A stretch of DNA of 64,000 nucleotides from the NCBI RefSeq assembly GCF_027214005.1, contig NZ_JAPWGY010000002.1:124001-188000 (forward strand). The letters are read 5' to 3'. This DNA comes from Kiloniella laminariae. GTDB taxonomy: Bacteria > Pseudomonadota > Alphaproteobacteria > Kiloniellales > Kiloniellaceae. Both the position numbers and the translations under genes were made by a program. A model generated the notes under the pieces. The model was not told the DNA's origin. It saw nothing but the letters and a program-made list of their open reading frames with translations, and made no database searches. This document shows positions 20,784 to 41,675 of this stretch, piece after piece. Numbering within the stretch: position 1 is the first letter of the stretch; each line of letters starts with the position of its first letter.

Positions 20784-21617
20784 CTATTTCTGTAGCTCGC
20801 GCCCCAGCGCAACAACAAGCGTAAGCGCCAGAGTCATGGTCGCACTCAATGACCGGAAGGCGTGAACCTCCACCTCTTCAACCTCAAGAGAGACATCCGA
20901 ATTCTGACTTAAGGGACTGAGCAGACCATCACTGATCGAGACAACAGGGATGGCTTTTTCCCGGGTCTCCTTGACCAGTTGAATCACTTCGGGGGAATAG
21001 CTTTTGAAGCTGATTGCCAAAAGAGCATCTCCTGACCGGATTGAATGCCCTTGCTGGAAAAACATTCCCCCATTGCCATCCACCAGAACGCAACGTTTAT
21101 CCAGCTGGGCAAAGGCATAAGCCAGATAACTCGCGACCGGAAAAGCGCGGCGTTGGGCAGCCAGATAGATCACATCAGCCTTGCCGAGAATTTTGATCGC
21201 CGCCTCGAACTGATCGGGATCGACCACATCCCGCAAATTTTTCAGCGCGGCAATCCCGCCATCAATAAAATCATCCAGAACGATGTTGCGGGGCGCACCA
21301 TCCTGATCATGCTCATTGCGAAAAGAACGGATCCGGTCTTTATAGTTGGTCCCGCTCTCGACCAGATAACTGCGAAATACCCTTTGCATCTCGCTGAAAC
21401 CTGAATAGCCAAACGCTTTGGCAAAGCGGATCAGGCTGGAAGGTTGGACCGAGGCGCGTTCAGCAATCCCGGAAACGGTCTCCAGCGCCATGTCGTTGGG
21501 ATTATCAAGCGCATATTCGGCTATCTGTTTAAGCCGCTTGCTGAGCCCCTCATGTTTTTCAGCCAGTTCATTACGCAGCTCTTCATAGCTCGCCGGAGGA
21601 ATAGTCGGAACAGTCAT
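20784..21617 (-). CDS. iolR: RpiR/MurR family transcriptional regulator, probable IolR
   Basis: 277-residue regulator with an N-terminal HTH_6 domain (about residues 10-85, containing MALETVSGIAERASVQPSSLIRFAKAFGYSGFSEMQ) and a C-terminal SIS sugar-phosphate isomerase domain (about 125-260) that would bind a phosphorylated effector. The N-terminal layout resembles the RpiR-type inositol repressor IolR of rhizobia, in contrast to the DeoR-type IolR of Bacillus. GAGG precedes the ATG. A perfect GGAA-N6-TTCC palindrome (21670-21683) lies about 53 nt upstream of its start, implying autoregulation, and related palindromes precede the CUT2 operon, the Afu-type transporter and iolG. The family is certain; the IolR name is inferred. 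Confidence 0.82.
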   Translation of the reverse strand: MTVPTIPPASYEELRNELAEKHEGLSKRLKQIAEYALDNPNDMALETVSGIAERASVQPSSLIRFAKAFGYSGFSEMQRVFRSYLVESGTNYKDRIRSFRNEHDQDGAPRNIVLDDFIDGGIAALKNLRDVVDPDQFEAAIKILGKADVIYLAAQRRAFPVASYLAYAFAQLDKRCVLVDGNGGMFFQQGHSIRSGDALLAISFKSYSPEVIQLVKETREKAIPVVSISDGLLSPLSQNSDVSLEVEEVEVHAFRSLSATMTLALTLVVALGRELQK

Positions 21618-21669
21618 ACAAGCCTCATGATTTTCTTCTGCTCAAGGAATAGCAGACTACAAGAAAAAT

Positions 21670-21683
21670 GGAATAAAAATTCC
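21670..21683. promoter_or_regulatory. IolR-like operator GGAA-N6-TTCC (exact match)
   Basis: GGAATAAAAATTCC is an exact match to the GGAA-N6-TTCC motif reported for Sinorhizobium IolR. It lies in the 107-nt gap upstream of the rpiR gene. Likely autoregulatory site. Confidence 0.65.
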
Positions 21684-21724
21684 GTTTCGAGAATACACAG
21701 ACCAATTCTACTCCTGAGACCCGC

Positions 21725-22459
21725 CTAAAGGATGATGATTTCACCGGCAGAGGCTACTCTTACGTTATCCGTCTCGGCGACAATCGCTTCAACCTGACCG
21801 ATAAGATCATCCCGAATATGATACAAGCGCATTAAGGGGATGGTCATCTCAACGGCAATTTTCAGGCAAGACCTGGCATCAAAATGTCCCGGCTCCAGGT
21901 TTTCCGGTCCATCGGCCCAGCTTTCCTGAAACACAAGGTCTGCCCCCTTCATCAACTCAAGGCTCGCTTTTGTCGCAGCACCATCACCACTGTAAAACAG
22001 GCTTTTCCCTGCCGCATCCAGCCGAATGGCATGGTTGATCACAGAATGGGCTGTTGGCGCAATTCGGCACTGCATGGGGCCTATCGTTCTGCACGTCCTC
22101 ACATCATGCCACCGGACAGGAAAAGGACAAGCCTCAGGGCGCGGCCAGAGGCCAAAATCCAAGGCAGCTTTCAGACGTTCGACACCCTGCGGTAAACAGT
22201 AGATATCCAGGGCTTTTGTCCGCCCTCGGCTCTCAAGCTGGTTAGCCAAAGGTCCAAGCCCGGCACAGTGATCCGAATGCAGATGCGTAATATAAATGGC
22301 ATCAATCGTATCCGGTGACAGATCCCGGCTCCAGAGTTGCTGAGGCACCGTAGGACCACAGTCAATCAACAGGCAAAACCCCTCTTCCCTGACCAGGACA
22401 GAAGCATTCGGATCACGGGGAGAAAAAGCCTCTCCCGCTCCAAGAACATCGATTTCCAT
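21725..22459 (-). CDS. MBL-fold metallohydrolase coupled to an ABC transporter
   Basis: Metallo-beta-lactamase-fold hydrolase of the RNase Z/PhnP-like branch, 244 residues. The zinc motif THLHSDHCAGL (HxHxDH) is intact; a later HSVINHAIRL segment, SGDGA and a distal HIRDD segment supply further candidate ligands. No signal peptide is seen, so it should act in the cytoplasm. Its ATG lies 3 nt past the stop of the transporter permease, with GGGGTATAG as ribosome site, so it is the last gene of the LacI-controlled transporter operon and likely acts on the imported compound. Family members include phosphodiesterases (PhnP, RNase Z), making a phosphodiester substrate plausible. No closer relative is recognised. 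Confidence 0.83.
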   Translation of the reverse strand: MEIDVLGAGEAFSPRDPNASVLVREEGFCLLIDCGPTVPQQLWSRDLSPDTIDAIYITHLHSDHCAGLGPLANQLESRGRTKALDIYCLPQGVERLKAALDFGLWPRPEACPFPVRWHDVRTCRTIGPMQCRIAPTAHSVINHAIRLDAAGKSLFYSGDGAATKASLELMKGADLVFQESWADGPENLEPGHFDARSCLKIAVEMTIPLMRLYHIRDDLIGQVEAIVAETDNVRVASAGEIIIL

Positions 22460-22462
22460 TAT

Positions 22463-23269
22463 CTATACCCCGATCTTGGAAACCACATTGGATTTCAGAA
22501 ATCTTTCGACAACCAGCATAAAACCGACCGAGGGAATCAGCAGGAACAACGCCGTAATCGACGCGATCTGATAGTTTCCTTCCATGCTTGCCGTGTACAT
22601 CATCAATGGCAGTGTCGTGATATCGGGCACCCCGACAAAGAAGGTCCCGGTAAATTCATCCAGTGAATTGAGGAAGACAAAAATCGCACTGGCCATAATG
22701 CCTGGCGCAGCAATTGGCAGACTGACCGTCCGAAAACTCAGCAAAGGAGAAGAACCAAGATCCCGTGCCGCCAGCTCCAGATCCCGGTCTACCGCTGAAA
22801 AAGCAGCTGTAGAGATCCAGACAGCATAAACCAACCCCTGAACCGAATGCACCATTACCACACCAAAGATCGTGCCATTCAGTCCTATGTCATAAAAGAT
22901 ACGCCCGATATTGATAAAGACCGCTACCGAAGGGAAGGCCTGTGGGATCAGAAAAGTCAACATGATCAGGGTTCGCACCGGCAGGGATCTTCTGGCCAGT
23001 GCATAGCCTGCAGGAATAGCCACCATAAGCGAGACCACAACTGTCCAGGCAGCAATATGAACCGAGGTCAAAAGGCTGTCTATGGCACCGGCCTGGGGCC
23101 TGAATACACGCTCCCAGTATTTAAAGCCCCAAACCGTAGGCAACTTGGCCGGAAAGAACCAGCTTTCGGTAAAGGCCCAGATCAGCATGTTGAGCAACGG
23201 TCCAAAAATCACCCAGGCAAACAGAGCAATAAGAAGGATATGCGGCAGGTTTTTAATCGAAAGGCGCAT
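22463..23269 (-). CDS. ABC transporter permease (Pot/Fbp-type, second subunit)
   Basis: Inner-membrane permease, 268 residues, about six membrane segments, with the EAA loop (ELAARDLGSSPLLSFRTVSLPIAAPGI) near residues 160-190. Resembles PotC/PhnV-like permeases that pair with a PotB-type partner. The ATG overlaps the stop of the preceding permease gene and has AAGGAGGG upstream, so translational coupling is near certain. It forms an importer with the neighbouring permease, binding protein and ATPase. Substrates of this family include polyamines, iron, 2-aminoethylphosphonate and various organophosphates, so sequence alone does not fix the cargo. Confidence 0.88.
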   Translation of the reverse strand: MRLSIKNLPHILLIALFAWVIFGPLLNMLIWAFTESWFFPAKLPTVWGFKYWERVFRPQAGAIDSLLTSVHIAAWTVVVSLMVAIPAGYALARRSLPVRTLIMLTFLIPQAFPSVAVFINIGRIFYDIGLNGTIFGVVMVHSVQGLVYAVWISTAAFSAVDRDLELAARDLGSSPLLSFRTVSLPIAAPGIMASAIFVFLNSLDEFTGTFFVGVPDITTLPLMMYTASMEGNYQIASITALFLLIPSVGFMLVVERFLKSNVVSKIGV

Positions 23270-24117
23270 CAGTTCTGCCCTCCTTCTTTTACAGCCTGTT
23301 TGAGGTAAATCCAGGCAACCGTGCCCGCCATGGCCATTGAAATGAAACCGAGAGCATTGGCTACGCCATAATCCGAATACCCATTGATGCGCCAGGCCAT
23401 ATCAACCGTCATCATGGTCGGCGTTCCGGTACCGATCATCATTGGAACAGACAGCACTGAGAGCATGGTTACAAAAGAAAGTATCAGAGAGACCATCAAT
23501 GTGGTCTTGATCTGTGGCACAATAATCTCCCCCAGTATACGCCAGGGAGACGCCCCCAGGTCGCGTCCTGCCTCGATCGTCGAACGATCCAGAGCAGCCA
23601 TCGCACCGCTTACCAGCAATGCTGCAAAAGCGGTCTGTTTCCAGACAAAAGCAATAATAATGCCTCGCCAATCAAGGTAACCAGAGGCCGTAAGGCCATC
23701 AATCAGTCCGATCGCCTCAAAAGAATTGTTCATAAAGCCGTTTTTGGCCAGAAAGGTACGCATCATCTGCCCGACAACAACAAACGGAATAAACAGGGGC
23801 CAGCGATAAAGCCATTTCAGAGCAGCAACCATCACCGGACGGCCACAAAGTGTAATGTATCCCCCGATACCTACGGAAATCAGCCCGACCAGCAAAGTCG
23901 CGACAGTCACGATCCCCACGGTATAAAGAACATCCTGTCCATAGAGCGAAAAGGCCTTGATAAAGTTGTCTATGCCGATCCGGGATGCCACTTCCCCGTC
24001 AGGCTCGATAACAAACGCACCGATTAACGATTTTCCCAACGGCCAAAGAAAAAGGCCTGCGACAAGAAAAAGCGCCGGTGCAACAAGTGTCATCGACACA
24101 AATCTGGACTCGCGCAT
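23269..24117 (-). CDS. ABC transporter permease (Pot/Fbp-type, first subunit)
   Basis: Inner-membrane permease, 282 residues, about six membrane segments. N-terminal SMTLVAPALFLVAGLFLWPLGKSLIGAF is the typical first helix of PotB-like permeases, and the EAA loop is IEAGRDLGASPWRILGEIIVPQIK at about residues 180-205. GAGG precedes the ATG at suitable spacing. It lies 73 nt after the binding-protein stop and overlaps the next permease by one base. Together they would form the heterodimeric channel of a LacI-controlled importer. Confidence 0.88.
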   Translation of the reverse strand: MRESRFVSMTLVAPALFLVAGLFLWPLGKSLIGAFVIEPDGEVASRIGIDNFIKAFSLYGQDVLYTVGIVTVATLLVGLISVGIGGYITLCGRPVMVAALKWLYRWPLFIPFVVVGQMMRTFLAKNGFMNNSFEAIGLIDGLTASGYLDWRGIIIAFVWKQTAFAALLVSGAMAALDRSTIEAGRDLGASPWRILGEIIVPQIKTTLMVSLILSFVTMLSVLSVPMMIGTGTPTMMTVDMAWRINGYSDYGVANALGFISMAMAGTVAWIYLKQAVKEGGQN

Positions 24118-24190
24118 GGAAACACCTCACTCAACGAACAGGACAAAGCCGAGGTGATGTCCTGACGACCTCACCTCGTTCTCAATTTAA

Positions 24191-25342
24191 TCAGTTACTT
24201 ACCTGAGCTTCATAAGCTTCGCGGATTTCATCCAGATGCTTAGCTACGGGAAAAGCCTTGCCCTTGGTCGCCAGATCTTCTGGGGTCACATCGACAAAAA
24301 GCTTGTTCCAGACAGAAGCATCCAGATCATCTTTCACATGCTCGGCATCAATACCGGGATACCAGGAAAACCGGCTGACAATCCCCTCGGCCTGTACGGT
24401 TGGGCTGGTTGCCAGCTCAATAAACTCCCGTGCCAGATCGCCATGAGCCGCCTTCTTTGGCACCACATAATACATCGGCTGCCCCGGCATTCCGGGACCA
24501 ATCAGCTTCAGCTTGGTATTGGGATCAAGCTTGCCTTCATCCCGCCACTGATAAAACATATCAACCCAGACTGGCCCCATGGCAATTTCACCCCGTCCCA
24601 GCATATCAAGCGTTCCCGCATTCCCTGGTGTGAAGGTGACGTTTTCATTAAATTGCTTCAGGCGCGCCAAGGCAGGTTCCCAGGTCTGGGCGGTTCCAGC
24701 ATCATACCCGGCTATAATTTTTTCACCTTCCGGGGCAAAATTATAGATCCAGCCAGTGACAAAACTGACTCCGGACATTCCATTCTTAATGCCGTTATAC
24801 CCAAACTGCCCCGGATGTTCTCCGGCCCAGGCTTCCAACTCGTCATAACTCGAAGGGGCGTCCTTGACCAACAGCGGATTATAGGCGATGGCTGTCTGGC
24901 TGTGGAACATCGGAATTACATATCCGCTCACATCCGCCCCAAGCGCATTGACCGAACTGTCCCGGGTTGCCAGCTTCCCGGTAGAGATCTCGTCCTTGTA
25001 GCGCGCCAGCAACCCTTCTTCGACCAGTTCTCCCGCTTTGAGCTGATGTACAACGGCAACATCAATATCCCAGCTGTCCTGATCTTTCTGAGCTGATAGC
25101 TTTTCGTAAATCGCCTGACTTCCGGCAGAACCTGCACCGGTTGAAACCGCCCGGACTTTAACTCCGGGGTGGCTTTCCTCAAATTTTGGTCCCAGATAAT
25201 CAGTCACGTAATCGAGCATATTCTGTGCCCCGGCGGTGACAACATTTAGGACAACCTCTTCTGCCTGAGCTGGCACAACAGCCCAGACAGATCCCCCCAG
25301 AACCAGCGCACTTGACCAGTTTTTGAAAACATTCTTCTTCAT
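24191..25342 (-). CDS. ABC transporter extracellular solute-binding protein
   Basis: Periplasmic binding protein of the PotD/AfuA-like solute-binding class, 383 residues, with a signal peptide (MKKNVFKNWSSALVLGGSVWAVVPAQAEE; cleavage probably after AQA). The body shows VVTAGAQNMLDYVTDYLGPKFEESHPG, a typical opening for this class, and later IAYNPLLVKDAPSSYDELEAW and EIAMGPVWVDMFYQW, which line the ligand cleft in relatives. An AGGAGA site precedes the ATG. Order in the operon is ATPase, binding protein, permease, permease, MBL hydrolase. Ligand unknown; phosphate-ester or polyamine-type compounds are both possible. Confidence 0.88.
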   Translation of the reverse strand: MKKNVFKNWSSALVLGGSVWAVVPAQAEEVVLNVVTAGAQNMLDYVTDYLGPKFEESHPGVKVRAVSTGAGSAGSQAIYEKLSAQKDQDSWDIDVAVVHQLKAGELVEEGLLARYKDEISTGKLATRDSSVNALGADVSGYVIPMFHSQTAIAYNPLLVKDAPSSYDELEAWAGEHPGQFGYNGIKNGMSGVSFVTGWIYNFAPEGEKIIAGYDAGTAQTWEPALARLKQFNENVTFTPGNAGTLDMLGRGEIAMGPVWVDMFYQWRDEGKLDPNTKLKLIGPGMPGQPMYYVVPKKAAHGDLAREFIELATSPTVQAEGIVSRFSWYPGIDAEHVKDDLDASVWNKLFVDVTPEDLATKGKAFPVAKHLDEIREAYEAQVSN

Positions 25343-25429
25343 AACTGTCTCCTGTAATCATAAGCGAGAGTTGATATAGGTGTTACAAGTCCTGCTCTTC
25401 GTTGACTTATCCCGAGCAAGTTCAGTGAA

Positions 25430-26503
25430 TCAGGCCGCAAAAAGATGCACCCGATGTGTAGGAATCTCGAGATGGACCATTGCGCCCTGTCCAAAAGCAG
25501 CCCCGTGATCAACGAGAAAAGTTTGTTCGCCGACCCGAACCGCATGTCGATAAAAACCGCCAGGATAAGTAATCTGCTCAACTTTTCCCTTGAGGACAAA
25601 ACTGTTCTCGGCTGGTTGGGTGCCTGCTTCCACCAGCATGGCTGCTTCACTGCGGAAGAAAAGCGTGCCCTTCCCTGCTGGCGCCGATAGCCCGTTTTCC
25701 TCTCCCGACTTCAAAGCAACGGGCTCCCCATAAACCGAGCTGATCTGACAGCCGTTTTTGTCTTTACGCCACTCCACCGAGATCTGATTGTCCGCCCCCA
25801 TGAAGTCAGCGACAAATGCTGTAGCAGGACGATTATAAAGCTCCTCCGGAGAACCGATCTGCTCGATCTTCCCCTTGTTCATCACCACGATCCGGTCAGC
25901 CATCACCATGGCCTCTTCGCGATCGTGGGTGACCATAACAGCGGTAATACCCAGGCGGTTCTGAATTGCCTTGATCTCATGACGTACGTGCTGGCGAATA
26001 CGCGCATCAAGGTTGGAAAGGGGTTCATCCAGCAACAGCAATGAAGGGTTCACTGCCAGAGCCCGTCCCAAAGCTACACGTTGCCGCTGTCCACCGGAAA
26101 GGTTTGCCACCAGGCGATCGCCAAATTCGGAAAGGCCAAGAAGATCAAGGGTATCGGAAACTGTTTTTGTGATTTCAGCTTTACTTTTTTTGCGCAACCT
26201 CAACCCATAGGCAATATTTTCAAAAGCCGTCATATGCGGCCAGAGCGCATAGGACTGAAAGACCATTGCCGTATCGCGCTTTTCAGGCGGTTGAAAGGTT
26301 ATATCCTCGCCTTCCAGCCTGATTTGTCCCTTTTCTGCTTCGATAAAGCCGGAGATTGTTCGTAACAAGGTTGTCTTGCCACAGCCCGATGCCCCTAACA
26401 GGGCCACCAGTTCTCCCTTCTCTACAGACAAGGATGTTCCATGAAGCACACGGACTGCCCCATACGATACCGACAGATTTTCAATTTGCAGAAAAACACT
26501 CAT
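25430..26503 (-). CDS. ABC transporter ATP-binding protein (PotA/FbpC-like)
   Basis: ATPase subunit, 357 residues. Walker A GASGCGKTTLLRTISGF, signature NLSGGQRQRVALGRAL, Walker B LLLLDEPLSNLD and the H-loop MVTHDREEAM are all intact. A C-terminal TOBE domain (about 280-355) follows, as in PotA, FbpC and 2-aminoethylphosphonate ATPases. It is the first gene of the operon; upstream are two identical LacI-type palindromes (26537 and 26654), so this promoter is probably the LacI target. The ribosome site (GGGGCGGTCGG) is moderate. Confidence 0.92.
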   Translation of the reverse strand: MSVFLQIENLSVSYGAVRVLHGTSLSVEKGELVALLGASGCGKTTLLRTISGFIEAEKGQIRLEGEDITFQPPEKRDTAMVFQSYALWPHMTAFENIAYGLRLRKKSKAEITKTVSDTLDLLGLSEFGDRLVANLSGGQRQRVALGRALAVNPSLLLLDEPLSNLDARIRQHVRHEIKAIQNRLGITAVMVTHDREEAMVMADRIVVMNKGKIEQIGSPEELYNRPATAFVADFMGADNQISVEWRKDKNGCQISSVYGEPVALKSGEENGLSAPAGKGTLFFRSEAAMLVEAGTQPAENSFVLKGKVEQITYPGGFYRHAVRVGEQTFLVDHGAAFGQGAMVHLEIPTHRVHLFAA

Positions 26504-26536
26504 TCCGACCGCCCCAGTTTACGCAAACACCTTCAC

Positions 26537-26550
26537 TGAAATCGATTTCA
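26537..26550. promoter_or_regulatory. LacI-type operator TGAAATCGATTTCA (proximal)
   Basis: Perfect 14-bp palindrome with a central CG, the hallmark of LacI-family sites, 34 nt upstream of the ATPase ATG. An identical copy lies at 26654-26667. Confidence 0.75.
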
Positions 26551-26653
26551 TTTTTTATTGTAAATCCATCTCTGTTTCAGCCTTAGCCTTCGTTATCCTC
26601 AGGCTTATCTCAAGAGAATGTGAATTTCAGACGCAATATTTGTTATGATTTTG

Positions 26654-26667
26654 TGAAATCGATTTCA
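26654..26667. promoter_or_regulatory. LacI-type operator TGAAATCGATTTCA (distal)
   Basis: Second identical 14-bp palindrome, 117 bp from the first, which is close to 11 helical turns and so in phase for looping. It lies between the stop of the lacI-type gene (26739) and the ATPase operon. Confidence 0.75.
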
Positions 26668-26738
26668 GTTAGTATGAAAGAGAAGAGATAAATCTGTCAA
26701 TAGGCCATGACGAATTTTGATAAGAAGGACCTCTTGAA

Positions 26739-27758
26739 CTAGCCCAGGCGAACCGAATTCCTGACAATCAACTCTGTGGGAATGCGCTGGAGAACAGGTT
26801 GTTTCTCGCCGGGGACTGACCAGTAATCAATCCGCTCCAGAACGAACTCAGCGATTTTGTTGACCGGCTGACGAATAGTGGTCAAACCGTAACCCGGCCA
26901 GGAAGACATTGGCACATCATCCATTCCGATAACAGAAAGATCGTGAGGAATCTTGAGCCCGAGATGATCACGGACAGCATCCATAACCCCAAAAGCCAGC
27001 GAGTCACTCGCACAAAAAATTCCATCTATCTTTTTATCCAAAGCCAGCATGGACAGAGCTGCTTCATACCCGGCCTGATAACTATAGGATCCACAAAATA
27101 CCTTTTGGGTCAGCCCAACCCCCATGTTATCCAGCGCCAGAACAAAACCTTCCCCACGCTCTTTAGAAGCAAGACGACCTTCGCTTCCCCCAACATAAGC
27201 CAAACTCTTGTGGCCACTGTTGATCAATATCGTGGCTGCCTGGGCCCCAGCCATGTGATTATCAGACAGCACAACATCCACGATGTCAGTCTCGACCGAT
27301 CGCCCCAGCATAATCACCGGCACACCAGATTCTATACAGGCAGCGACAGATTCATCCGGCAATGACCCCGCAGCCACAACCAGAACATCAACCCGAAAAT
27401 CAAGGGCGCGATAAATCGGTTCGACCGGATCGCCTGCCAGATCGACCGTCACCAGCATCGGCATTTTCCCACCCCGATGCAGATGACGGGTCAGCGCATC
27501 AAACATCCAGGGCTGAAAGGGGTTATCAAACTCCCCCATTACGATAGCAACTATATTGGTATGACTCTGGGTCAGGCTTCGCGCCAGTGCATTTGGCCGA
27601 TAGCCCAGTTCCTTGGCCGCAGAGAGAACCCTCTCTCTGGTACCAGCTGAAACAGGAGCACCCGGCGTAAAGGTTCGGGATACAGCAGATCTGGAGACAC
27701 CCGCCAACTTGGCCACATCACCAACAGTTACCCGAATTACATTCTTTACACGCGCCAT
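26739..27758 (-). CDS. LacI family transcriptional regulator of the Pot/Fbp-type transporter operon
   Basis: 339-residue repressor with an N-terminal HTH (about residues 8-55, VTVGDVAKLAGVSRSAVSRTFTPG) and hinge RPNALARSL, followed by a periplasmic-binding-like effector domain (CASDSLAFGVMDAV, VIGMDDVPMSSWPGYGLTTI). Start: ATG 27758 (MARVKNVIRVTV) has AGGTGG upstream; the frame extends to 27803 with a non-homologous leader. It is transcribed in the same direction as the transporter operon, with the two TGAAATCGATTTCA palindromes immediately downstream, so it probably binds them. It diverges from a second LacI-family gene at 28016. Effector unknown. Confidence 0.93.
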   Translation of the reverse strand: MARVKNVIRVTVGDVAKLAGVSRSAVSRTFTPGAPVSAGTRERVLSAAKELGYRPNALARSLTQSHTNIVAIVMGEFDNPFQPWMFDALTRHLHRGGKMPMLVTVDLAGDPVEPIYRALDFRVDVLVVAAGSLPDESVAACIESGVPVIMLGRSVETDIVDVVLSDNHMAGAQAATILINSGHKSLAYVGGSEGRLASKERGEGFVLALDNMGVGLTQKVFCGSYSYQAGYEAALSMLALDKKIDGIFCASDSLAFGVMDAVRDHLGLKIPHDLSVIGMDDVPMSSWPGYGLTTIRQPVNKIAEFVLERIDYWSVPGEKQPVLQRIPTELIVRNSVRLG

Positions 27759-27958
27759 CAACAACCACCTGCCCAAGGAAAGGGAAAGACAGGAGATTAA
27801 CATCTATGAAATCGGTTCCACAACAAAACAGATAAATAAAATCCGGAGAATAAACGACCGCACTTTCAGGCAACCCTTTCAGATAATGAAAAATATACTT
27901 TCCTCCCCAACCAGAAACACACAAACCCAACCTCGTAAAAATGCTCAAAATATTTCCT

Positions 27959-29147: not shown

Positions 29148-29161
29148 GGAAATATAATTCC
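29148..29161. promoter_or_regulatory. IolR-like operator GGAA-N6-TTCC upstream of the Afu-type transporter
   Basis: GGAAATATAATTCC is an exact match to the GGAA-N6-TTCC palindrome, lying 184 nt before the start of the Afu-type binding-protein gene and 35 nt after the lacI stop. It suggests that this transporter belongs to the inositol regulon. Confidence 0.55.
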
Positions 29162-29259
29162 ATTTCTTTATTTTTTTGAAATTATTCTTTCATTTATTTT
29201 TCAACCTCTCTATCATCCCTGAAAGCTCGATTGTGTGGAGTGAGTTTTTTTTACACATT

Positions 29260-33724: not shown

Positions 33725-34537
33725 GTGTATCTTGACGCTCAAGACATTACCCCTGAACTGAAACAACGCTTTGAACATGCCCAGAAGGTCATTCGGGCTG
33801 CTGGCGAAAAAGCTTTGGACTACTTTAACCGTCGGGATGAACTGACGATTGAAACCAAAGCAGATCCCCAGGATGTTGTCAGTATTGCTGACAAGGATGT
33901 TGAAACCATTATCCGGGGTATGACGCGGGAACTTTTCCCTGACGACGGTTTTATGGGCGAAGAACACGGTCAGGAAACAGGCAAGAATGACTTTCTCTGG
34001 GTGATAGACCCTATTGATGGCACAGCCTGTTTTCTCACAGGAATGCGCCCCTGGTGTATTTCTGTTGCCTTGATGAAAGGCGACAGAATTGCTGCAGGTC
34101 TGGTCTATGACCCCAATACTGATGAACTCTTCGCTGCTCTTGCAGGACACGGAGCTCATTTGAACGGGGCCCCTATCCACAGCCAGAAATCAAAATCAGT
34201 AACCGAAGGTGTTATGGGCGTTGGCATATCTCACCGTGTGCCTGCTGCGGAACTGTTACCCTTTCTCGATAAACTTTTGTCCTCTGGAGGCATGTTCATT
34301 CGTAATGGTTCCTGCGCACTCATGATGTCTTATGTCGCGGCAGGCCGCTTGATAGGGTATTTTGAACCCCACATTAATGGCTGGGATTGCCTTGCAGGAA
34401 TTATTCTTATCAAAGAGGCAGGCGGCTGGTGTTCCGCTTTTCTCGATAACGATGGCCTGAACAAGGGCAATCCCATTCTTGCTTCTGCCAGCGGGGTTGC
34501 AGCAGATCTGCGCGTAATGACGGGATTGACCTCCTAG
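33725..34537 (+). CDS. Inositol monophosphatase family protein
   Basis: Mg-dependent phosphatase of the IMPase/FBPase fold, 270 residues from a GTG start (AAGGAAT upstream). Metal-binding motifs are all visible: GEEHGQE near residue 80, WVIDPIDGTACF (DPIDGT signature) and GWDCLAG near the C-terminus. The family dephosphorylates inositol phosphates, histidinol phosphate, PAP or sugar phosphates. It lacks a signal peptide and is the last gene of the Afu-type transporter operon, so it likely acts on imported phosphate esters in the cytoplasm. Proximity to iol genes suggests that inositol 1-phosphate or a related isomer is a substrate; this is inference. Histidinol-phosphatase activity is an alternative. 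Confidence 0.9.
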   Translation: MYLDAQDITPELKQRFEHAQKVIRAAGEKALDYFNRRDELTIETKADPQDVVSIADKDVETIIRGMTRELFPDDGFMGEEHGQETGKNDFLWVIDPIDGTACFLTGMRPWCISVALMKGDRIAAGLVYDPNTDELFAALAGHGAHLNGAPIHSQKSKSVTEGVMGVGISHRVPAAELLPFLDKLLSSGGMFIRNGSCALMMSYVAAGRLIGYFEPHINGWDCLAGIILIKEAGGWCSAFLDNDGLNKGNPILASASGVAADLRVMTGLTS

Positions 34538-34968: not shown

Positions 34969-35958
34969 TTAAAGCGTAACTGGCAGGCCTGTCATCAGAG
35001 ACTCAGTGGCTGCATCAGCCAAAACCTGGGCCATCAGGCCATCATATCCACTTGGCGCCGGAGCATTCTTCGCTTCAACAACATCAATAAAGGCGTTCAA
35101 CTCATCCCGGTATGCGGCGCTGTAACGCTCCAGAAAAAAATGCTGGACCGGATCAGCCCTGAAACCATCACATGTTGCAACCTCCACTGTGGTCTCATGT
35201 ACATTTCCTGCCCGCAACATCCCCTTGGAACCATGAACCTCGATCCGTTGATCATAACCATAGCTGGCCCGGCGGGAGTTGGAAATCTGGCACACCTTGC
35301 CACTGGCAGTTTTCAACACAGCAATCGCGGTATCAATGTCACCTGCCGCACCGATCGCAGGATCAACCAGCGCAGAACCTGTCGCGTAAACAGAAACCGG
35401 CTCTTCACCCAGCAGAAAACGCGCCATGTCCAGATCATGGATCATCATGTCCCTGAACAGCCCGCCAGAACGGCTGATATAGGAAACCGGTGGTGGCGCA
35501 GGATCCCTGGACTGAATGGTCACGATCTCCACTTCCCCGATCTCCCCGGCGGAAAGGCGTTTTTGCAAAGCAGAGAAGTTGGGATCAAAACGCCGGTTAA
35601 AACCGATCATCAGAGGCTGGCCACTGGCATCTACAACCTTAAGGCAATCACGGATACGCCCGGCATCCATATCAACCGGTTTTTCGCAGAAAACCGCTTT
35701 GCCCGCCCGCACACCAGCTTCAATAAAACCAGCATGGGTATCAGTCGAAGATGCAACGAAAACCGCCTGAACATCATCCCGCGCAAGCATTTCTTCGACC
35801 GAAGAAACCACTGCCCCCGTCTTGTCAGCCAAGGTCTGTGCCGCATCAGCAAATACATCAGATACCGTCACAAGTCTGGCCCGGGGATTTGAAACAATAT
35901 TCTCGGCATGAAGCTGACCTATACGGCCTGCTCCGATTAATCCAAAACCAATCAACAC
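34969..35958 (-). CDS. iolG: Inositol 2-dehydrogenase
   Basis: NAD-dependent myo-inositol 2-dehydrogenase, converting myo-inositol to scyllo-inosose, the first step of inositol catabolism. Gfo/Idh/MocA fold: LIGFGLIGAGRIGQLHAENI at the N-terminus, VFCEKPVDMDAGRIRDCL (catalytic Lys), GFNRRFDPNF and MIHDLDMARFLLGEEPVSVYATGS, the block seen in IolG. The 329-residue length fits. Start: an ATG at 35979 exists but a GGAGG site sits at 35962-35966, between it and the GTG at 35958 (or TTG 35955), so translation probably starts at a non-ATG codon. Its promoter (TTGTGA/TATATT, 17-nt spacing) overlaps palindromes. Divergent from iolC. Confidence 0.92.
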   Translation of the reverse strand: MLIGFGLIGAGRIGQLHAENIVSNPRARLVTVSDVFADAAQTLADKTGAVVSSVEEMLARDDVQAVFVASSTDTHAGFIEAGVRAGKAVFCEKPVDMDAGRIRDCLKVVDASGQPLMIGFNRRFDPNFSALQKRLSAGEIGEVEIVTIQSRDPAPPPVSYISRSGGLFRDMMIHDLDMARFLLGEEPVSVYATGSALVDPAIGAAGDIDTAIAVLKTASGKVCQISNSRRASYGYDQRIEVHGSKGMLRAGNVHETTVEVATCDGFRADPVQHFFLERYSAAYRDELNAFIDVVEAKNAPAPSGYDGLMAQVLADAATESLMTGLPVTL

Positions 35959-35970
35959 AACCTCCAAAAA

Positions 35971-35984
35971 GGAATACATATTCT
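35971..35984. promoter_or_regulatory. IolR-like operator in the iolG-iolC divergent region
   Basis: GGAATACATATTCT matches GGAA-N6-TTCC with one mismatch. It lies just downstream of the predicted iolG transcription start, 13-26 nt before the iolG GTG. Confidence 0.6.
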
Positions 35985-35995
35985 GAATTGACTTA

Positions 35996-36024
35996 AATAT
36001 AGAATATGTGTTTCATATTCACAA
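35996..36024 (-). promoter_or_regulatory. Predicted iolG promoter containing a palindrome
   Basis: On the minus strand TTGTGA (36019-36024) and TATATT (35996-36001) are 17 nt apart. The spacer holds a perfect inverted repeat GAATATG-N5-CATATTC (36002-36020), a second potential regulator site. Confidence 0.55.
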
Positions 36025-36131
36025 GATAAAGATTTCGCGAGAACTTACTCTTCTCCGATTCCCCTTCTCCACATAACACTGTGTCGAGAAGCCACCCTGA
36101 AGCCAAGAACCGGGAAAGCCAAGACAGGGAT

Positions 36132-38048
36132 ATGACGAATAAACATGATCTGGATGTAATCACCATCGGCCGTGCCTCCGTTGACCTCTATGGTCAGCAA
36201 ATAGGCGGACGCCTTGAGGACATGGCAAGCTTCGCCAAATCGGTGGGCGGGTGCCCGGCCAACATTGCCATTGGAACCTCCCGACTTGGATTAAAATCCG
36301 GGTTTATCAGCCGTGTGGGTGATGAACAGATGGGCCGCTATATCTGCGAACAGATGCAGCGCGAAGGAGTTGTAACAGAGGGCATCACAACAGATCCCGA
36401 ACGCCTGACCGCCCTTGTGCTGCTCGGTGTGCGGAACGACGAGACATTCCCTCTGATTTTCTATCGTGAAAACTGTGCCGACATGGCGCTTTGTGAGGCA
36501 GATATCGACCCCGATTATATAAAGCGGGCCCGTTCTGTTCTGATCAGCGGCACCCATCTTTCCACGACAACCGTTGCAGCAGCCAGTAAAAAAGCGATCA
36601 CCCTTGCAAAGGCACAGGGGAACAAGGTTATTCTTGATATCGACTATCGGCCCAATCTCTGGGGGTTGGCCGGACACGAAGCCGGAGAAGAACGTTATAT
36701 TCGTTCAGACAAGGTAACAGAACACCTTCAATCCATCCTGCCCGACTGTGACCTTATCGTCGGGACCGAGGAAGAGGTGCACATTGCCGGAGGGTCAGAA
36801 AACACCCTGGAAGCCTTGTCCCGCATCCGCTCTCTCAGTAATGCTGTCATTGTGCTTAAACGCGGCCCCATGGGATGTGTGGTTTTCCCCACGACTATTC
36901 CTGACAATCTCGACAAAGGGATCACAGGCTCCGGATTTCCGGTTGAGGTATATAATGTGCTTGGTGCGGGTGACTCCTTTATGTCGGGCTTTCTGCGTGG
37001 CTGGCTACGCGGCGAACCCTATGAGACCTGTGCCAAATGGGCCAATGCCTGTGGTGCTTTTGCCGTTTCCCGTTTGCTCTGCTCCCCCGAAATTCCCACC
37101 TGGGACGAGTTACAGTACTTCCTGAAGAATGGAAGCAAACACACGGCTCTCCGCAAGGACGCAGAGATCAATCATGTCCATTGGGCAACCACGCGCCGTC
37201 CAGCTGACGAAATGCTGATGGCTTTTGCCATTGATCACCGTTCCCAGCTGGAGGAAATGGCTGAACGTGCTGGCGTTTCCGTCGACAAAATTTCTGAAAT
37301 AAAAAAATTGGCTGTCCGTGCTGCCGCTCGTGTGGCTGACGGACGCCCCAACTACGGTATGTTGCTCGACAGCACCTATGGCACCAAGGCCCTTTACGAA
37401 GCAGCCAAGCATCCTCTCTGGATTGGCCGCCCGGTTGAACTGCCCGGCTCGCGTCCCCTCGACTTTGACCAGATCATGGATCTCGGATCGCATTTGAGTG
37501 AATGGCCTGTCAATCATGTTATCAAGTGTCTCTGTTTCTATCATCCAGATGATCCTGTTGAGCTTCGCGAACAGCAGGAACAGTCCCTCTTGCGTCTTTA
37601 CGAAGCGGCCAGACGTGTTGGGCGTGAACTGCTGATCGAAATCATTGCCGGGAAACATGGTCCCTTGACGGATCAGACAATCCCGCTTGCCATGCGCCGC
37701 TTTTATGCTCTGGGCATCAAACCCGACTGGTGGAAACTGGAACCACAGACCAGCGAGACAGCCTGGCAAAATATCGGCAAGGTAATCGACGAAAATGACC
37801 GCTATTGCCGCGGCATCGTTCTTCTCGGACTTGAAGCGCCGGAAGAAGAGTTGAAGAGCGCGTTTGCCTCGGCGATTTCCTCTCCCTGGGTCAAAGGCTT
37901 TGCTGTTGGCCGGACAATTTTTGCCCAGGCTGCAGAGGCCTGGCTAAAAGGCGAAATAAGTGATGAAGAGGCCGTCAACGACATGGAAAACCGGTTTCGC
38001 CGCTTGACCTATGCCTGGCTGGAAGTGTGGAATACCCGTGGCGAGTGA
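36132..38048 (+). CDS. iolC: 5-dehydro-2-deoxygluconokinase fused to DUF2090 (IolC)
   Basis: Bifunctional inositol catabolism protein, 638 residues. Residues 1-320 form a PfkB-family kinase (ITIGRASVDLYGQQIGGRLEDM and VLGAGDSFMSGFLRGWLRG, GAGD base), phosphorylating 5-dehydro-2-deoxygluconate (DKG). Residues about 330-638 are the DUF2090 domain with an aldolase-like barrel (AFAIDHRSQLEEMAERAG; ELLIEIIAGKHGPL), which in the family may supply DKGP aldolase (IolJ-like) activity. Length fits the fused alphaproteobacterial form. Start: ATG 36132 (MTNKHDLDVITIG) is chosen; an AGGGA motif lies close, and the frame extends upstream to a GTG at 36081 without a site. First gene of the iolCDEB operon. 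Confidence 0.93.
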   Translation: MTNKHDLDVITIGRASVDLYGQQIGGRLEDMASFAKSVGGCPANIAIGTSRLGLKSGFISRVGDEQMGRYICEQMQREGVVTEGITTDPERLTALVLLGVRNDETFPLIFYRENCADMALCEADIDPDYIKRARSVLISGTHLSTTTVAAASKKAITLAKAQGNKVILDIDYRPNLWGLAGHEAGEERYIRSDKVTEHLQSILPDCDLIVGTEEEVHIAGGSENTLEALSRIRSLSNAVIVLKRGPMGCVVFPTTIPDNLDKGITGSGFPVEVYNVLGAGDSFMSGFLRGWLRGEPYETCAKWANACGAFAVSRLLCSPEIPTWDELQYFLKNGSKHTALRKDAEINHVHWATTRRPADEMLMAFAIDHRSQLEEMAERAGVSVDKISEIKKLAVRAAARVADGRPNYGMLLDSTYGTKALYEAAKHPLWIGRPVELPGSRPLDFDQIMDLGSHLSEWPVNHVIKCLCFYHPDDPVELREQQEQSLLRLYEAARRVGRELLIEIIAGKHGPLTDQTIPLAMRRFYALGIKPDWWKLEPQTSETAWQNIGKVIDENDRYCRGIVLLGLEAPEEELKSAFASAISSPWVKGFAVGRTIFAQAAEAWLKGEISDEEAVNDMENRFRRLTYAWLEVWNTRGE

Positions 38049-38099: not shown

Positions 38100-39947
38100 A
38101 TGAAGACAATCAGATTAACAATGGCACAGGCTCTGGCGCGGTTCCTTTGCGCCCAGAAGACCGAGATAAACGGCAAGATCACTCCTGTTTTTGGTGGCGT
38201 TTGGGCAATTTTTGGCCACGGGAATGTCTCGGGCCTGGGCGAAGCCCTCTACCACGTACAGGAAGACCTGCCAACATATCGGGCGCACAACGAACAGGGA
38301 ATGGCCCATGCAGCGATCGCATTTGCCAAGGCTTCAAACCGCCGACGGATGATGGCCTGTACAACCTCGATCGGCCCCGGAGCGACGAACATGGTAACAG
38401 CAGCTGCGCTGGCCCATGTCAATCGTCTGCCCATTCTTCTCTTGCCGGGTGATGTCTTTGCCAACCGCAATCCCGACCCTGTGTTACAGCAGATCGAATG
38501 CTTTGGCGACGGAACGGTTTCCGCCAATGACTGCTTCAAAGCTGTTTCGCGTTATTTTGACCGCATCACCAGACCCGAACAGATCATCCCGGCTCTCAAT
38601 CGGGCTATGGCTGTTTTGACTGATCCCGCCGATTGTGGCCCGGTAACACTGGCGCTATGTCAGGATACTCAGGCAGAGGCTTATGATTACCCTGAAAGCT
38701 TCTTTGCTGAAAAAATCTGGCGTATCCGCCAGCCCTTGCCTGATCTGCGTGAGCTTGATGAAGCTCTGGCGGCCCTTAAAATAGCCCAGAAACCACTGAT
38801 CATTGCCGGGGGTGGTGTACACTATGCCCAGGCAACAGAACATCTCCGCAGTTTTGCCGAAAAACACGCCATTCCCATCGCCGAAACCCAGGCAGGCAAA
38901 TCCGCCCTGCCCCACGATCATCCTCTGAATATGGGCGCGATAGGGGTAACCGGAACTTCCGCGGCCAACACTCTGGCTGAACAGGCTGATCTTGTTTTGG
39001 CAGTTGGTACCCGACTGCAAGATTTCACAACCGGCTCCTGGTCCCTTTTCCAAAATCCTGATCGCAAGTTTGTCGGCATCAACATACAGACTTTCGACGC
39101 AACCAAACATCGCTCCCTGCCTGTTGTAGGGGATGCCGCCGTTATCCTTGAACTGCTTGATCAAAAACTCGCTGACTGGTCTGCTCCATCCGACTGGACA
39201 CTGCAAGCCGCCGCCGGGTTCAAGCAATGGCAACTTGCCGCTGACAGGGTTACAGCAGCCAGCTCGCACCCTTACCCCAGTGATGCACAGGTGATAGGCG
39301 CAGTCCAACGCCACAGCACAAAAGAAAGTATTGTTGTCTGTGCTGCGGGTGGTTTGCCCGGTGAACTTCACAAACTCTGGCAGGCACAAAAACCGGGGGG
39401 CTATCACGTTGAGTATGGGTATTCCTGCATGGGATACGAGATAGCAGGTGGTCTTGGGGTCAAGATGGCAGATCCCGACCGGGAGGTGATCGTGATGGTT
39501 GGCGATGGCTCCTATCTCATGATGAATTCGGAAATCGCCACATCTGTTCTGCTCGACCTTCCCCTGACCATTGTCCTGCTCGACAACCGGGGGTACGGCT
39601 GTATCAATCGCCTGCAACAGGGTACAGGTGGAGAATCATTTAACAACCTGCTGCAACATACCCACCATCAGTCCCTGCCTGACATAGACTTTCGTGCTCA
39701 TGCACAAAGTCTTGGCGCAGAAGCAACCAAGGTATCCGGCATCGCAGAACTCGAAAAAGCTCTTGCCAAAGCACGGGCCAGCAATCGCACCAACGTGATT
39801 GTCATCGACACAGATCCACTGGTCTCAACCGCAGAAGGCGGATGCTGGTGGGATGTTGCAGTGCCTGAGGTATCGGTTCGCAAGGAAGTCGTATCCGCGC
39901 ATGAGAATTACCTCACTGCGCTCAAGAAACAACGTATCGGAGATTAA
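38100..39947 (+). CDS. iolD: 3D-(3,5/4)-trihydroxycyclohexane-1,2-dione acylhydrolase
   Basis: Thiamine-diphosphate enzyme cleaving the ring diketone (THcHDO) to 5-deoxyglucuronate in inositol catabolism. 615 residues. N-terminal TPP-binding part with TYRAHNEQGMAHAAIAFAKA (catalytic Glu) and CTTSIGPGATNM; C-terminal TPP-binding VMVGDGSYLMMNSEIAT with the GDG...N metal motif and the following LLDNRGYGCINRLQQ. Length and these IolD-specific blocks are diagnostic. It follows iolC by 51 nt and precedes iolE by 5 nt, so it is part of one operon. Confidence 0.95.
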   Translation: MKTIRLTMAQALARFLCAQKTEINGKITPVFGGVWAIFGHGNVSGLGEALYHVQEDLPTYRAHNEQGMAHAAIAFAKASNRRRMMACTTSIGPGATNMVTAAALAHVNRLPILLLPGDVFANRNPDPVLQQIECFGDGTVSANDCFKAVSRYFDRITRPEQIIPALNRAMAVLTDPADCGPVTLALCQDTQAEAYDYPESFFAEKIWRIRQPLPDLRELDEALAALKIAQKPLIIAGGGVHYAQATEHLRSFAEKHAIPIAETQAGKSALPHDHPLNMGAIGVTGTSAANTLAEQADLVLAVGTRLQDFTTGSWSLFQNPDRKFVGINIQTFDATKHRSLPVVGDAAVILELLDQKLADWSAPSDWTLQAAAGFKQWQLAADRVTAASSHPYPSDAQVIGAVQRHSTKESIVVCAAGGLPGELHKLWQAQKPGGYHVEYGYSCMGYEIAGGLGVKMADPDREVIVMVGDGSYLMMNSEIATSVLLDLPLTIVLLDNRGYGCINRLQQGTGGESFNNLLQHTHHQSLPDIDFRAHAQSLGAEATKVSGIAELEKALAKARASNRTNVIVIDTDPLVSTAEGGCWWDVAVPEVSVRKEVVSAHENYLTALKKQRIGD

Positions 39948-39952
39948 TCTGC

Positions 39953-40849
39953 ATGACCATTCGTATCGGTGCCAATCCTATTGGCTGGTCAAATGATGAC
40001 ATGACTGAACTTGGGGGGCATATCTCTCTGGAACAATGCCTGAGCGAAGCACAGGAGGCCGGGTTTGTCGGCATGGAACTTGGCAACAAGTTCCCGCGTG
40101 AAGCAGCCGCCTTGCAACAGGTTCTCTCGGCCCATGGCCAGGTCTTGGTTTCCGGCTGGTATTCTTCTGAATTGCTGACCCGCTCGGTTGCAGAAGAACT
40201 CAACAATCTCCGCCCCCATCTTGATCTTCTCAAGGCCTGTGGCTCCAACGTGCTGGTTTTCGCCGAGACTTCCAACGCAATCCACGGTGATATTGACAAG
40301 CCCCTGTCGCAACGTCCTGTCATGGCTGCCAAAGATTGGATCGAGTTCGGCCGCAAGATCACTGAAGTTGCCGATGCTGCCCTGGCCGAAGGTGTTCGGC
40401 TGGTTTACCACCATCACATGGGAACCATCGTACAGTCTGCCGAAGACATCCATGCTTTCATGGCCTGTACCGGACCGTCAGTTCATCTGCTGCTTGATGC
40501 CGGGCATGCCACCTGGGGCGGAGCAGATCCGGCAGAGCTCGCCCGTCGTTACCGTACCCGGATCAGCCATGTCCACACCAAGGATGTACGCAAGAACGTC
40601 ATGGAGAAAGCTGCCGCCGAAGACTATAGCTTCCTCAAGGCCATTATCGCAGGTGTCTATACCGTACCCGGCGATGGCATGATCGATTTTGTTTCTGTCC
40701 TCAAAGAACTCCCGGGTTACAGTGGCTGGGTTATTGTCGAGGCAGAACAGTACTCTGATAAAATCAGCGCCCTCGATTTTGCCAAGCTTGGCTATAACAA
40801 TCTCTCTCGCTATCTGAGAGAGGCTGGCCTCATCGAAGCCCCGGCCTGA
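39953..40849 (+). CDS. iolE: Inosose dehydratase / myo-inosose-2 dehydratase
   Basis: Dehydrates scyllo-inosose (2-keto-myo-inositol) to the trihydroxycyclohexane dione that IolD hydrolyses. 298-residue TIM barrel: IGANPIGWSNDDMTELGGHISLEQCLSEAQEAGF, an IolE-typical N-terminus; LVYHHHMGTIVQ and LLLDAGHATWGG (metal-binding His/Asp), VHTKDVR and a VIVEAEQYSD segment near the C-terminus carrying the last Glu. Five nt after iolD and 19 nt before iolB. Confidence 0.95.
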   Translation: MTIRIGANPIGWSNDDMTELGGHISLEQCLSEAQEAGFVGMELGNKFPREAAALQQVLSAHGQVLVSGWYSSELLTRSVAEELNNLRPHLDLLKACGSNVLVFAETSNAIHGDIDKPLSQRPVMAAKDWIEFGRKITEVADAALAEGVRLVYHHHMGTIVQSAEDIHAFMACTGPSVHLLLDAGHATWGGADPAELARRYRTRISHVHTKDVRKNVMEKAAAEDYSFLKAIIAGVYTVPGDGMIDFVSVLKELPGYSGWVIVEAEQYSDKISALDFAKLGYNNLSRYLREAGLIEAPA

Positions 40850-40868
40850 GTACATACAGGAAAATATT

Positions 40869-41675
40869 ATGAGCAAGCTTCTGGTAAAACCTACTGCCCC
40901 CGACGCGCAGGGCCGCGTCCTCAACATCACCCCGGAAACTGCAGGCTGGACCTATGTTGGTTTTGATCTGCACAAGCTTGAGAAAGATCAGGTTGCCTCG
41001 GGCGAAACGGGCGAACGGGAAATTTGTCTGGTGTTTGTTTCCGGCAAAGGACAGGTCGTGATTGAGGATCAGGACTTTGGCCTGGTCGGAGAACGCATGT
41101 CTCCCTTTGAAGGCAAACCCTGGTCGGTTTACATCCCCGCCGGAAGTTCCTGGAGTGTCAGAGGACAAACATCTGTCGAGCTTGCCGTTTGTTCTGCCCC
41201 TGGCAATCCTGGCAAGGATAAACTCCCAGCACGTATCATAGGCCCGGAACAGGCCGGAATGGAGAAACGCGGGGTCGGCACCAACGTGCGGCATGTCGCC
41301 AACATCCTGCCGGAAACGGACCCAGCCGAAAGTCTGTTGGTGGTTGAGGTGATCACCCCTGGGGGGCACTGGTCATCCTATCCGCCGCACAAGCATGATC
41401 GCGATGCCCTGCCGGATGAATCCCTGTTGGAAGAGACCTACTATCACCGGATAAATCCATCCCAGGGCTTCGCTTTCCAACGGGTTTACACCGATGACCG
41501 CTCCCTTGATGAAACCCTCGCAGTCGAAGACGGTAACGTCGTATTGGTACCAGAAGGCTATCATCCCTGTGGTGCCCCACACGGATACGACCTCTATTAT
41601 CTGAATGTCATGGCTGGACCAAAACGGATCTGGAAATTCCATAACGATCCGGCCCATGAATGGATGCTGAAGTAA
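40869..41675 (+). CDS. iolB: 5-deoxy-glucuronate isomerase
   Basis: Converts 5-deoxyglucuronate to 5-dehydro-2-deoxygluconate (DKG), the IolC substrate. 268-residue cupin: VLNITPETAGWTYVGFDLHKLEKDQ, SYPPHKHDRDALPDESLLEETYYHRI with His/Glu metal ligands, GFAFQRVYTDDRSLDETLAV and GYHPCGAPHGYDLYYLNVMAGP. Last gene of the operon, followed after about 17 nt by a strong terminator. iolA/mmsA (malonate-semialdehyde dehydrogenase) is not in this window, so the pathway must finish elsewhere on the chromosome. Confidence 0.95.
   Translation: MSKLLVKPTAPDAQGRVLNITPETAGWTYVGFDLHKLEKDQVASGETGEREICLVFVSGKGQVVIEDQDFGLVGERMSPFEGKPWSVYIPAGSSWSVRGQTSVELAVCSAPGNPGKDKLPARIIGPEQAGMEKRGVGTNVRHVANILPETDPAESLLVVEVITPGGHWSSYPPHKHDRDALPDESLLEETYYHRINPSQGFAFQRVYTDDRSLDETLAVEDGNVVLVPEGYHPCGAPHGYDLYYLNVMAGPKRIWKFHNDPAHEWMLK

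Follow-up and report, generated by a model that had tools for sequence, protein, structure and literature searches.

What is imported by an AfuABC-type ATP-binding cassette (ABC) transporter whose genes adjoin those for inositol catabolism? The question is raised by positions 20784-41675 of the 64,000-nucleotide stretch of DNA from a marine Kiloniella that is analysed here (the window), where such an importer and a gene of the inositol-monophosphatase family (IMPase) lie next to iolG/iolCDEB and to a gene for an IolR-like RpiR regulator. The importer set, defined here by its solute-binding protein SBP1, recurs in many other bacteria, often under the label of an iron transporter. The best reading, which we consider likely, is that inositol monophosphate would be imported, dephosphorylated in the cytoplasm and passed on to iol catabolism. 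This route, proposed by an earlier reading of the window without database searches (the sequence-only reading), gains support from the computed gene content and linkage, the binding pocket, the grouping of importer-linked phosphatases and paired IolR-type promoter boxes, which together point to the predicted ligand.

An AfuA-type importer and a phosphatase adjoin the iol genes

On the plus strand, a LacI-family regulator identified by profile match (LacI1, 28016-29113) is followed by SBP1 (29345-30376), which carries a signal peptide, a fused two-domain permease of 747 amino acids with two BPD_transp_1 stretches (30388-32631), an ATPase (32628-33701; PF00005 and TOBE_2) and the IMPase-family gene (33725-34537). 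SBP1 most likely starts at the ATG at 29345 rather than at the TTG at 29291 that opens the longest frame. Next come iolG on the minus strand (34969-35979; TIGR04380, 448.1 bits against an NCBIfam cut-off of 355) and, on the plus strand, iolC fused to a DUF2090 aldolase (36081-38048; PF09863; NF047869, 753.4 bits, cut-off 600; the NCBI name for the fused form is kinase/aldolase), iolD (38100-39947; TIGR04377, 968.1 bits, cut-off 715), iolE (39953-40849; TIGR04379, 373.7 bits, cut-off 290) and iolB (40869-41675; TIGR04378, 342 bits, cut-off 205). All five thus pass the curated cut-offs for the iol inositol catabolic operon. Open frames and profile matches place the named genes where the sequence-only reading had put them; its complete iolG/iolCDEB set is present in full, except that iolG is divergent and not in line with iolCDEB.

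The predicted working of the module would begin in the periplasm, where SBP1 would catch inositol monophosphate, which the SBP1 operon would import as an intact molecule. The IMPase-family enzyme would then act in the cytoplasm to release the phosphate, leaving free inositol for the IolG-IolD-IolE-IolB-IolC(J) pathway, so that the cell could gain both carbon and phosphate from one molecule.

The SBP1 pocket is probably that of a phosphorylated-ring binder

The Afu-type identity of the transporter, claimed from the sequence, holds at the level of its binding protein. SBP1, which is 96-97% identical to the K. laminariae copy, matches AfuA (PDB 4r72-4r75) with 303.4 bits and 47% identity over 312 aligned positions and the close AfuA homologue 8x1a with 303.1 bits, followed by the pyridoxal-phosphate binder P5PA (250 bits, 40.5% identity); the best iron binder, HitA, reaches 52.5 bits, about 250 bits below AfuA. 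In AfuA, the phosphate contacts include S37, T60, S148, G149 and T150, and Y103, H205, D206, E229 and Q269 contact the sugar ring (excerpts of PMC4546632 and PMC8427247). All five phosphate contacts are identical in the window SBP1.

We compared the pocket, in AfuA numbering, across 131 SBP1 relatives of at least 50% identity, a set from which exact duplicates were removed and in which several sequences per locus or species remain. S148, G149, T150, G185, Y103, H205, D206, E229 and Q269 are each kept in 129-131 of the 131. Among the phosphate contacts, the individual counts are 117 for S37, 125 for T60, 130 for S148 and 131 each for G149 and T150, and among the ring contacts 129 for H205, 130 for D206 and 131 for E229. 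Because the phosphate and ring contacts are conserved, the predicted ligand is very likely a phosphorylated ring compound; these data do not tell which ring. Compared with AfuA, the ring end of the pocket is changed: T11 is replaced by D (88 relatives) or Q (32), G36 by S (121) and I186 by S (101). Of the sequences with the D/S class at positions 11/186, 80 of 85 are IMPase-linked, and the residue type at these positions gives no clean prediction of iol linkage. Among 18 paralogues below 40% identity, S148 and G149 are kept, as are T150 in 17 and E229 in 11, with T60, Y103, H205, D206 and Q269 changed; four binding proteins of 40-50% identity, set apart from these counts, have neither H205 nor D206.

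Several loci vary this theme. In L085, L145, L150, L152 and L161-L164, a single permease and ATPase are accompanied by two or three SBP1 paralogues, which suggests that one importer is served by binding proteins of different specificity. At L149:6522-8885, a gene of the Na+/phosphate cotransporter family lies directly 5' of SBP1 and perhaps handles released phosphate. A plasmid of R. leguminosarum WSM1325 (L166:2814-12141) carries the same importer type with a HAD-family phosphatase after the ATPase and a second binding protein, and an ATP-binding protein and a response regulator are encoded upstream. On a Vibrio plasmid (L207:3202-10311), an AfuA relative 43.5% identical to SBP1 is preceded by genes for a response regulator and a MASE1-domain protein; unlike the SBP1 cassette, the 12 kb shown contain no annotated phosphatase.

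Linkage to phosphatase and iol genes is conserved

Linkage was counted within 10 kb of SBP1 in two samples: 80 named loci, which are the best 80 of 183 SBP1 matches and hence biased to close relatives, and an even sample of the class with 31 SBP1-bearing genomes and 356 others. The two overlap at least in K. laminariae and K. litopenaei. An IMPase-family gene is present in 74 of the 80 named loci and iol genes in 26; the class sample gives 21 of 31 for IMPase, 10 of 31 for iol and 9 of 31 for both. As a control, a paralogous importer of 30-34% identity from the same family of genomes yields 0/16 for either gene, these 16 loci representing probably few independent lines and some being cut by contig ends. 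At the level of whole genomes, iolD is present in 27 of the 31 SBP1 genomes versus 34 of the 356 others (Fisher p 1.3e-20, uncorrected for kinship), and the co-occurrence extends to 16 of the 19 families with SBP1. The sequence-only reading had asked for such a search and had named a lack of conserved linkage beforehand as refuting; the linkage turned out to be conserved.

The order of the iol neighbours differs among Kiloniella, another genus of the family (L039-L042), L038 and L052, and again in Neorhizobium (L058, L063, L081), the Ochrobactrum group (L064, L079 and others) and the class-sample loci L147, L148, L150-L152 and L161. L052 is labelled Oceanospirillales, and its SBP1 groups with Kiloniella in the SBP1 tree. 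By parsimony, iol linkage changes 16 times in a tree of 85 SBP1 sequences with 24 linked tips (shuffles: mean 21, lowest 17), a count that overstates separate events given that some loci contribute two tips.

Most phosphatases linked to the two importers group together

The product of 33725-34537 matches PF00459 with 164.7 bits (cut-off 27), retains intact GEE, DPIDGT and WD motifs and has no signal peptide visible by eye. It is one of five IMPase-family genes in its own genome. In a tree of 46 hand-chosen phosphatases, a main clade of 31 sequences (support 0.995) unites the window's own enzyme with 24 of 33 phosphatases linked to SBP1 and 6 of 8 linked to SBP2, the binding protein of a sister importer encoded in the same module; the four other paralogues of the genome fall outside. 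A neighbouring group (0.954) holds seven SBP1-linked phosphatases and one SBP2-linked one (L185), and another SBP2-linked phosphatase (L202) lies further out, beyond an own-genome paralogue; the two remaining SBP1-linked ones (L155, L160) group with other own-genome paralogues. Among the 21 IMPase genes of the class sample, 19 group with the window's own (support 0.87); those of L155 and L160 again group with the other own-genome paralogues. The simplest reading of these trees is that one product, putatively inositol monophosphate, would be reached by two import routes.

A sister importer is paired with phosphodiesterases

The sister importer occupies 21725-27803 on the minus strand and comprises a metallo-beta-lactamase-fold (MBL) hydrolase, a putative phosphodiesterase (21725-22459; PF12706/PF00753), two permeases (22463-23269 and 23269-24117; PF00528), SBP2 (24191-25342; PF13416), an ATPase (25430-26503; PF00005) and a LacI-family regulator found by profile match (LacI2, 26739-27803). 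Two identical TGAAATCGATTTCA palindromes (26537-26550 and 26654-26667), read from the window sequence alone, are candidate LacI2 operators. SBP2 occurs in 2 of 21 near relatives, its own genome included, and in 6 of 398 genomes of a phylum sample; three further searches added 18, 2 and 3 matches. We examined 27 SBP2 loci, namely the window, L052 and 25 fetched neighbourhoods (20 of the 23 later matches and 5 earlier ones). No PDB sequence match to SBP2 was found at E 0.001, and a structure prediction from three sequences was poor (mean pLDDT 43.7).

Exactly one of three unrelated phosphodiesterase families lies beside SBP2 in 20 of the 27 loci: MBL-fold in 4, calcineurin-like in 9 and 2H-type in 7. 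L137 has PhoD and HAD phosphatases in their place. The family profiles were seeded from the same loci, so that 20/27 is a count of what was seen, the SBP1 and paralogue loci serving as the control; at a threshold of at least 100 bits, the 31 and 80 SBP1 loci yield only the MBL genes of the window and K. laminariae, the sole other match there being a weak calcineurin-like one (45 bits, L146), and the 16 paralogue loci yield nothing. The MBL residues H59, H61, D63, H64, H138, D159 and H214 are invariant in all four aligned enzymes, and the best PDB match of the MBL profile is Apyc1. The 2H-type enzymes keep the motifs H37-T39 and H114-S116 in all six aligned sequences, and their profile matches the plant cyclic phosphodiesterase 1fsi (E 1.3e-20); these two HxT/S motifs and the similarity to the plant enzyme place them among the 2H cyclic phosphodiesterases. 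The calcineurin-like profile matches Rv0805 and the phosphohydrolase 2dxl, which we take to be GpdQ.

The alternation of three phosphodiesterase families agrees with the earlier proposal that the sister importer takes up a phosphodiester. For its example, glycerophosphoinositol, the phosphodiester part stands, and a cyclic inositol phosphate is an equally good or better candidate. None of the SBP2-linked phosphodiesterases, the window MBL included, has a signal sequence visible by eye at the protein start; the diester is therefore probably imported whole. We lean towards an inositol-type compound as the SBP2 ligand, and the gene neighbourhoods suggest a phosphodiester of inositol, for which inositol 1,2-cyclic phosphate and glycerophosphoinositol are candidates. 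The 2H enzymes speak for a cyclic phosphate with a five-membered ring and hence for the 1,2-cyclic compound, and the 2dxl-like enzymes would fit glycerophosphoinositol as well. In the own genome, no PI-PLC-X domain was found, which speaks neither for nor against scavenging of the cyclic phosphate. As proposed, SBP2 would catch the diester for import, the MBL-fold enzyme would open or cleave it to inositol monophosphate, and the latter would be used by the same phosphatase, 33725, and the iol pathway.

The SBP2 cassette also occurs in named records, of which we viewed 4 of 18 that matched. A Klebsiella pneumoniae record (L204) and an E. coli plasmid (L203) combine an IMPase gene and a gene labelled ribonuclease Z with the SBP2 importer, Azospirillum (L205) combines a gene labelled ribonuclease Z with the importer, and Phyllobacterium (L206) a phosphodiesterase with the importer; the profiles confirm the MBL type in L203-L205 and the calcineurin-like type in L206. 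In the E. coli plasmid pEGY2, typed as conjugative, the importer, MBL and IMPase genes (L203:3080-9959) lie near an IS1 transposase, which suggests that the cassette can move between genera.

Promoter boxes and regulators

The 5'-most gene of the module encodes the RpiR-family regulator (20784-21617, minus strand; HTH_6 and SIS domains), which is 39-53% identical to the RpiR proteins of iol-bearing loci in other genera (L039-L042, L058, L063, L081, L148, L150). Caulobacter IolR is likewise of the RpiR type and has a GGAA-N6-TTCC motif, which the boxes of the SBP1 promoter resemble (excerpts of PMC2597717). The sequence-only reading had noted an exact GGAA-N6-TTCC palindrome at the transporter promoter matching one before rpiR, and both are there, on the plus strand at 29148-29161 and 21670-21683. 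Box number by itself was rejected as evidence: the window has four exact copies where 1.7 are expected, and 11 of 100 shuffles reach four. Across the genome, the pattern occurs at 143 places versus 98 for the reversed pattern.

Support for the box at 29148 comes from its position, since the core GAA-N6-TTC is kept in all seven aligned Kiloniella promoters and a second box, GAAA-N6-TTTC (29178-29191, plus strand), likewise kept in the seven, lies 30 bp away. A weaker plus-strand pair with the same 30-bp spacing, neither box being exact, occurs in the iolG/iolC promoter. There, box 1 (35971-35984) has one mismatch and extends over the start codon of the longest iolG frame; it is fully visible in five of the Kiloniella rows, with variants, and box 2 (36001-36014) is identical in all seven. 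Four genomes of another genus of the family have a box pair 30 bp apart in the divergent SBP1/IMPase promoter. Over the loci scanned, strong pairs (14 of 16 matches) are most often spaced by 30 bp, with 8 pairs versus a mean of 1.5 per spacing; five of these eight lie in SBP1 promoters, four of them from one genus.

A further palindrome in the SBP1 promoter, TTGTGCAAACGTGTGCACAA at 29260-29279, was compared across the seven Kiloniella rows. It is identical in four of them, with a near variant in L035, and its centre is altered in L034 and L036, the two loci without LacI1. Given that the palindrome is kept with LacI1 and altered without it, LacI1 probably acts at this candidate operator. With an RpiR regulator and boxes before iol and transporter genes, those at iolG/iolC being inexact, the module is a candidate IolR regulon with predicted regulator binding, and the RpiR protein and LacI1 may jointly control the SBP1 operon.

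Downstream of the module, 41737-43311 encodes a serine-hydroxymethyltransferase-like PLP protein of uncertain start; its longest frame has about 115 extra N-terminal residues, a stretch that overlaps a divergent GcvA-like LysR gene (43172-44074).

Weighing the alternatives

The closest competitor of inositol phosphate import is that SBP1 is a general hexose-phosphate importer like AfuABC, taking glucose-6-phosphate or fructose-6-phosphate, with the IMPase-family enzyme acting as a broad sugar phosphatase and the iol genes being near by virtue of a shared carbon regulon. AfuA and its close homologue are indeed the best solved matches of SBP1, and the glucose-6-phosphate contacts H205, D206, E229 and Q269 are conserved, which leaves room for hexose phosphates. 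We nevertheless consider this unlikely: imported hexose phosphates need no phosphatase, and none is annotated at the single AfuA-like Vibrio locus viewed; the iol linkage and co-occurrence are strong, pocket positions 11, 36 and 186 are unlike AfuA in most relatives, and related phosphatases serve the SBP2 system. Import of ferric iron, possibly chelated by inositol phosphates, is what the automatic annotation in rhizobia (fbpC1) implies. We rejected it for SBP1, and regard it as scarcely credible, on the order of similarities, with AfuA far closer than HitA, and on the retained phosphate pocket, to which the phosphatase and iol linkage add. Import of 2-aminoethylphosphonate was also rejected, the binding-protein model of the PhnS2/U2/T2 system (TIGR03261) giving 221.4 bits against its cut-off of 392.75. 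Hardly more probable is that the IMPase-family gene serves histidine synthesis or other housekeeping as a chance member of the operon. Its best NCBIfam match is HisN, though below the cut-off (TIGR02067, 146 of 275 bits); against this role stand the conserved nearness across families, with none in the 16 controls, and the four further paralogues in the genome. More serious, if still rather unlikely, is that the SBP2 phosphodiester is unrelated to inositol, being a nucleotide fragment or another glycerophosphodiester, and that its iol neighbourhood is accidental. The three phosphodiesterase profiles match proteins whose substrates are nucleotides or glycerophosphodiesters (activities that we partly assume), only three of the 27 SBP2 loci (the window, L052 and L200) are iol-adjacent, and 19 have no IMPase, the window being counted among the eight that do even though its IMPase belongs to the SBP1 operon. 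Yet six of these eight phosphatases nest in the SBP1-linked clade, the three iol-adjacent loci are scattered over the SBP2 tree, and IMPase, MBL and SBP2 occur side by side in the K. pneumoniae record and the E. coli plasmid.

Other observations weigh against import of inositol phosphates followed by iol catabolism. The 33725 phosphatase is also below the equivalog cut-off for inositol-1-monophosphatase (NF008027, 134.5 of 332 bits), and two of the eight SBP2-linked phosphatases (L185, L202) are outside the main clade. In the class sample, 12 of 31 loci are without a linked IMPase of this group, 21 of 31 are without iol genes within 10 kb, and iolD is missing from 4 of the 31 genomes; the Fisher test and the parsimony count are uncorrected for kinship, cut contigs and several binding proteins per locus. 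Six of the 27 SBP2 loci (L052, L183, L186, L190, L193, L200) have none of the phosphodiesterases sought. Among 121 upstream regions scanned, the exact box precedes SBP1 in 7 (two from the same K. litopenaei genome; 1.5 expected), in none outside two genera, and at 13 of 16 matches 30 bp is not the commonest pair spacing (25 pairs versus 26 at 25 bp and 60 bp). Together with the evidence above, import and cytoplasmic dephosphorylation of inositol monophosphate remains our preferred reading. As a broader and tentative proposal, which we hold to be possible rather than probable, Proteobacteria may have a two-armed inositol-phosphoester system. One arm, of the AfuA type, would take inositol monophosphate (for example, the Ins(2)P left by phytases), and an unrelated second arm would take myo-inositol 1,2-cyclic phosphate (from phosphatidylinositol or GPI anchors), with the ring opened by MBL-fold, 2H-type or calcineurin-like enzymes interchangeable between lineages. 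The two arms would meet at the IMPase group and the iol pathway, with IolR as the regulator in Kiloniella.

Significance and comparison with known systems

Much organic phosphorus is present as inositol phosphates, and the module offers candidates for a transporter, a phosphatase, a phosphodiesterase and a regulator that would serve their use. It also gives a predicted function to rhizobial operons now labelled as iron importers and to a Klebsiella operon whose enzyme carries the ribonuclease Z label. All components are of known families. No account of their combination, of the reassigned ligand or of the sister system was found in the open-licence literature, in which our search met no description of a bacterial inositol-phosphate importer, in keeping with the sequence-only reading, which knew of no system of this exact architecture.

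The SBP2 system resembles glycerophosphodiester uptake by UgpBAEC/UgpQ, in which, as we presume, an intact phosphodiester is imported and then cleaved in the cytoplasm; it differs in that its partners are MBL, calcineurin-like or 2H enzymes, joined at some loci by IMPase. Among relatives of SBP1, AfuABC of Actinobacillus/Citrobacter imports phosphorylated cyclic sugars (excerpts of PMC4546632) and shares the phosphate pocket and ring triad, whereas AfuA lies outside the SBP1 sequences in the tree and differs from most of them at three pocket positions, and the SBP1 system is set apart by its conserved phosphatase and iol linkage. The P5PAB importer (PDB 6wce) also uses an AfuA-family binding protein for another phosphorylated ligand, pyridoxal phosphate (excerpts of PMC8427247), but unlike SBP1 and AfuA, P5PA has A in place of D206 and E229. 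In S. meliloti, SMb20362 is listed as an inositol-phosphate phosphatase, SMb20363 as an Fe3+ import ATPase and SMb20365 as an iron-binding protein (excerpts of PMC12542648); we infer that they belong to the same operon as the homologous set of binding protein, permease, ATPase and IMPase on pSymB of strain ml21, which, unlike that of Kiloniella, is annotated for Fe3+ import and has no iol genes in the 15 kb viewed. The Caulobacter IbpA-IatA-IatP and IolR regulon, an inositol regulon with an RpiR-type IolR and GGAA-N6-TTCC boxes, resembles the regulon predicted here, and is unlike it in importing free inositol through a binding protein of the XylF superfamily (excerpts of PMC2597717). The word "monophosphatase" is not in that paper, whose authors speculate that another, unrelated transporter might carry inositol phosphates (PMC2597717, in the excerpts).

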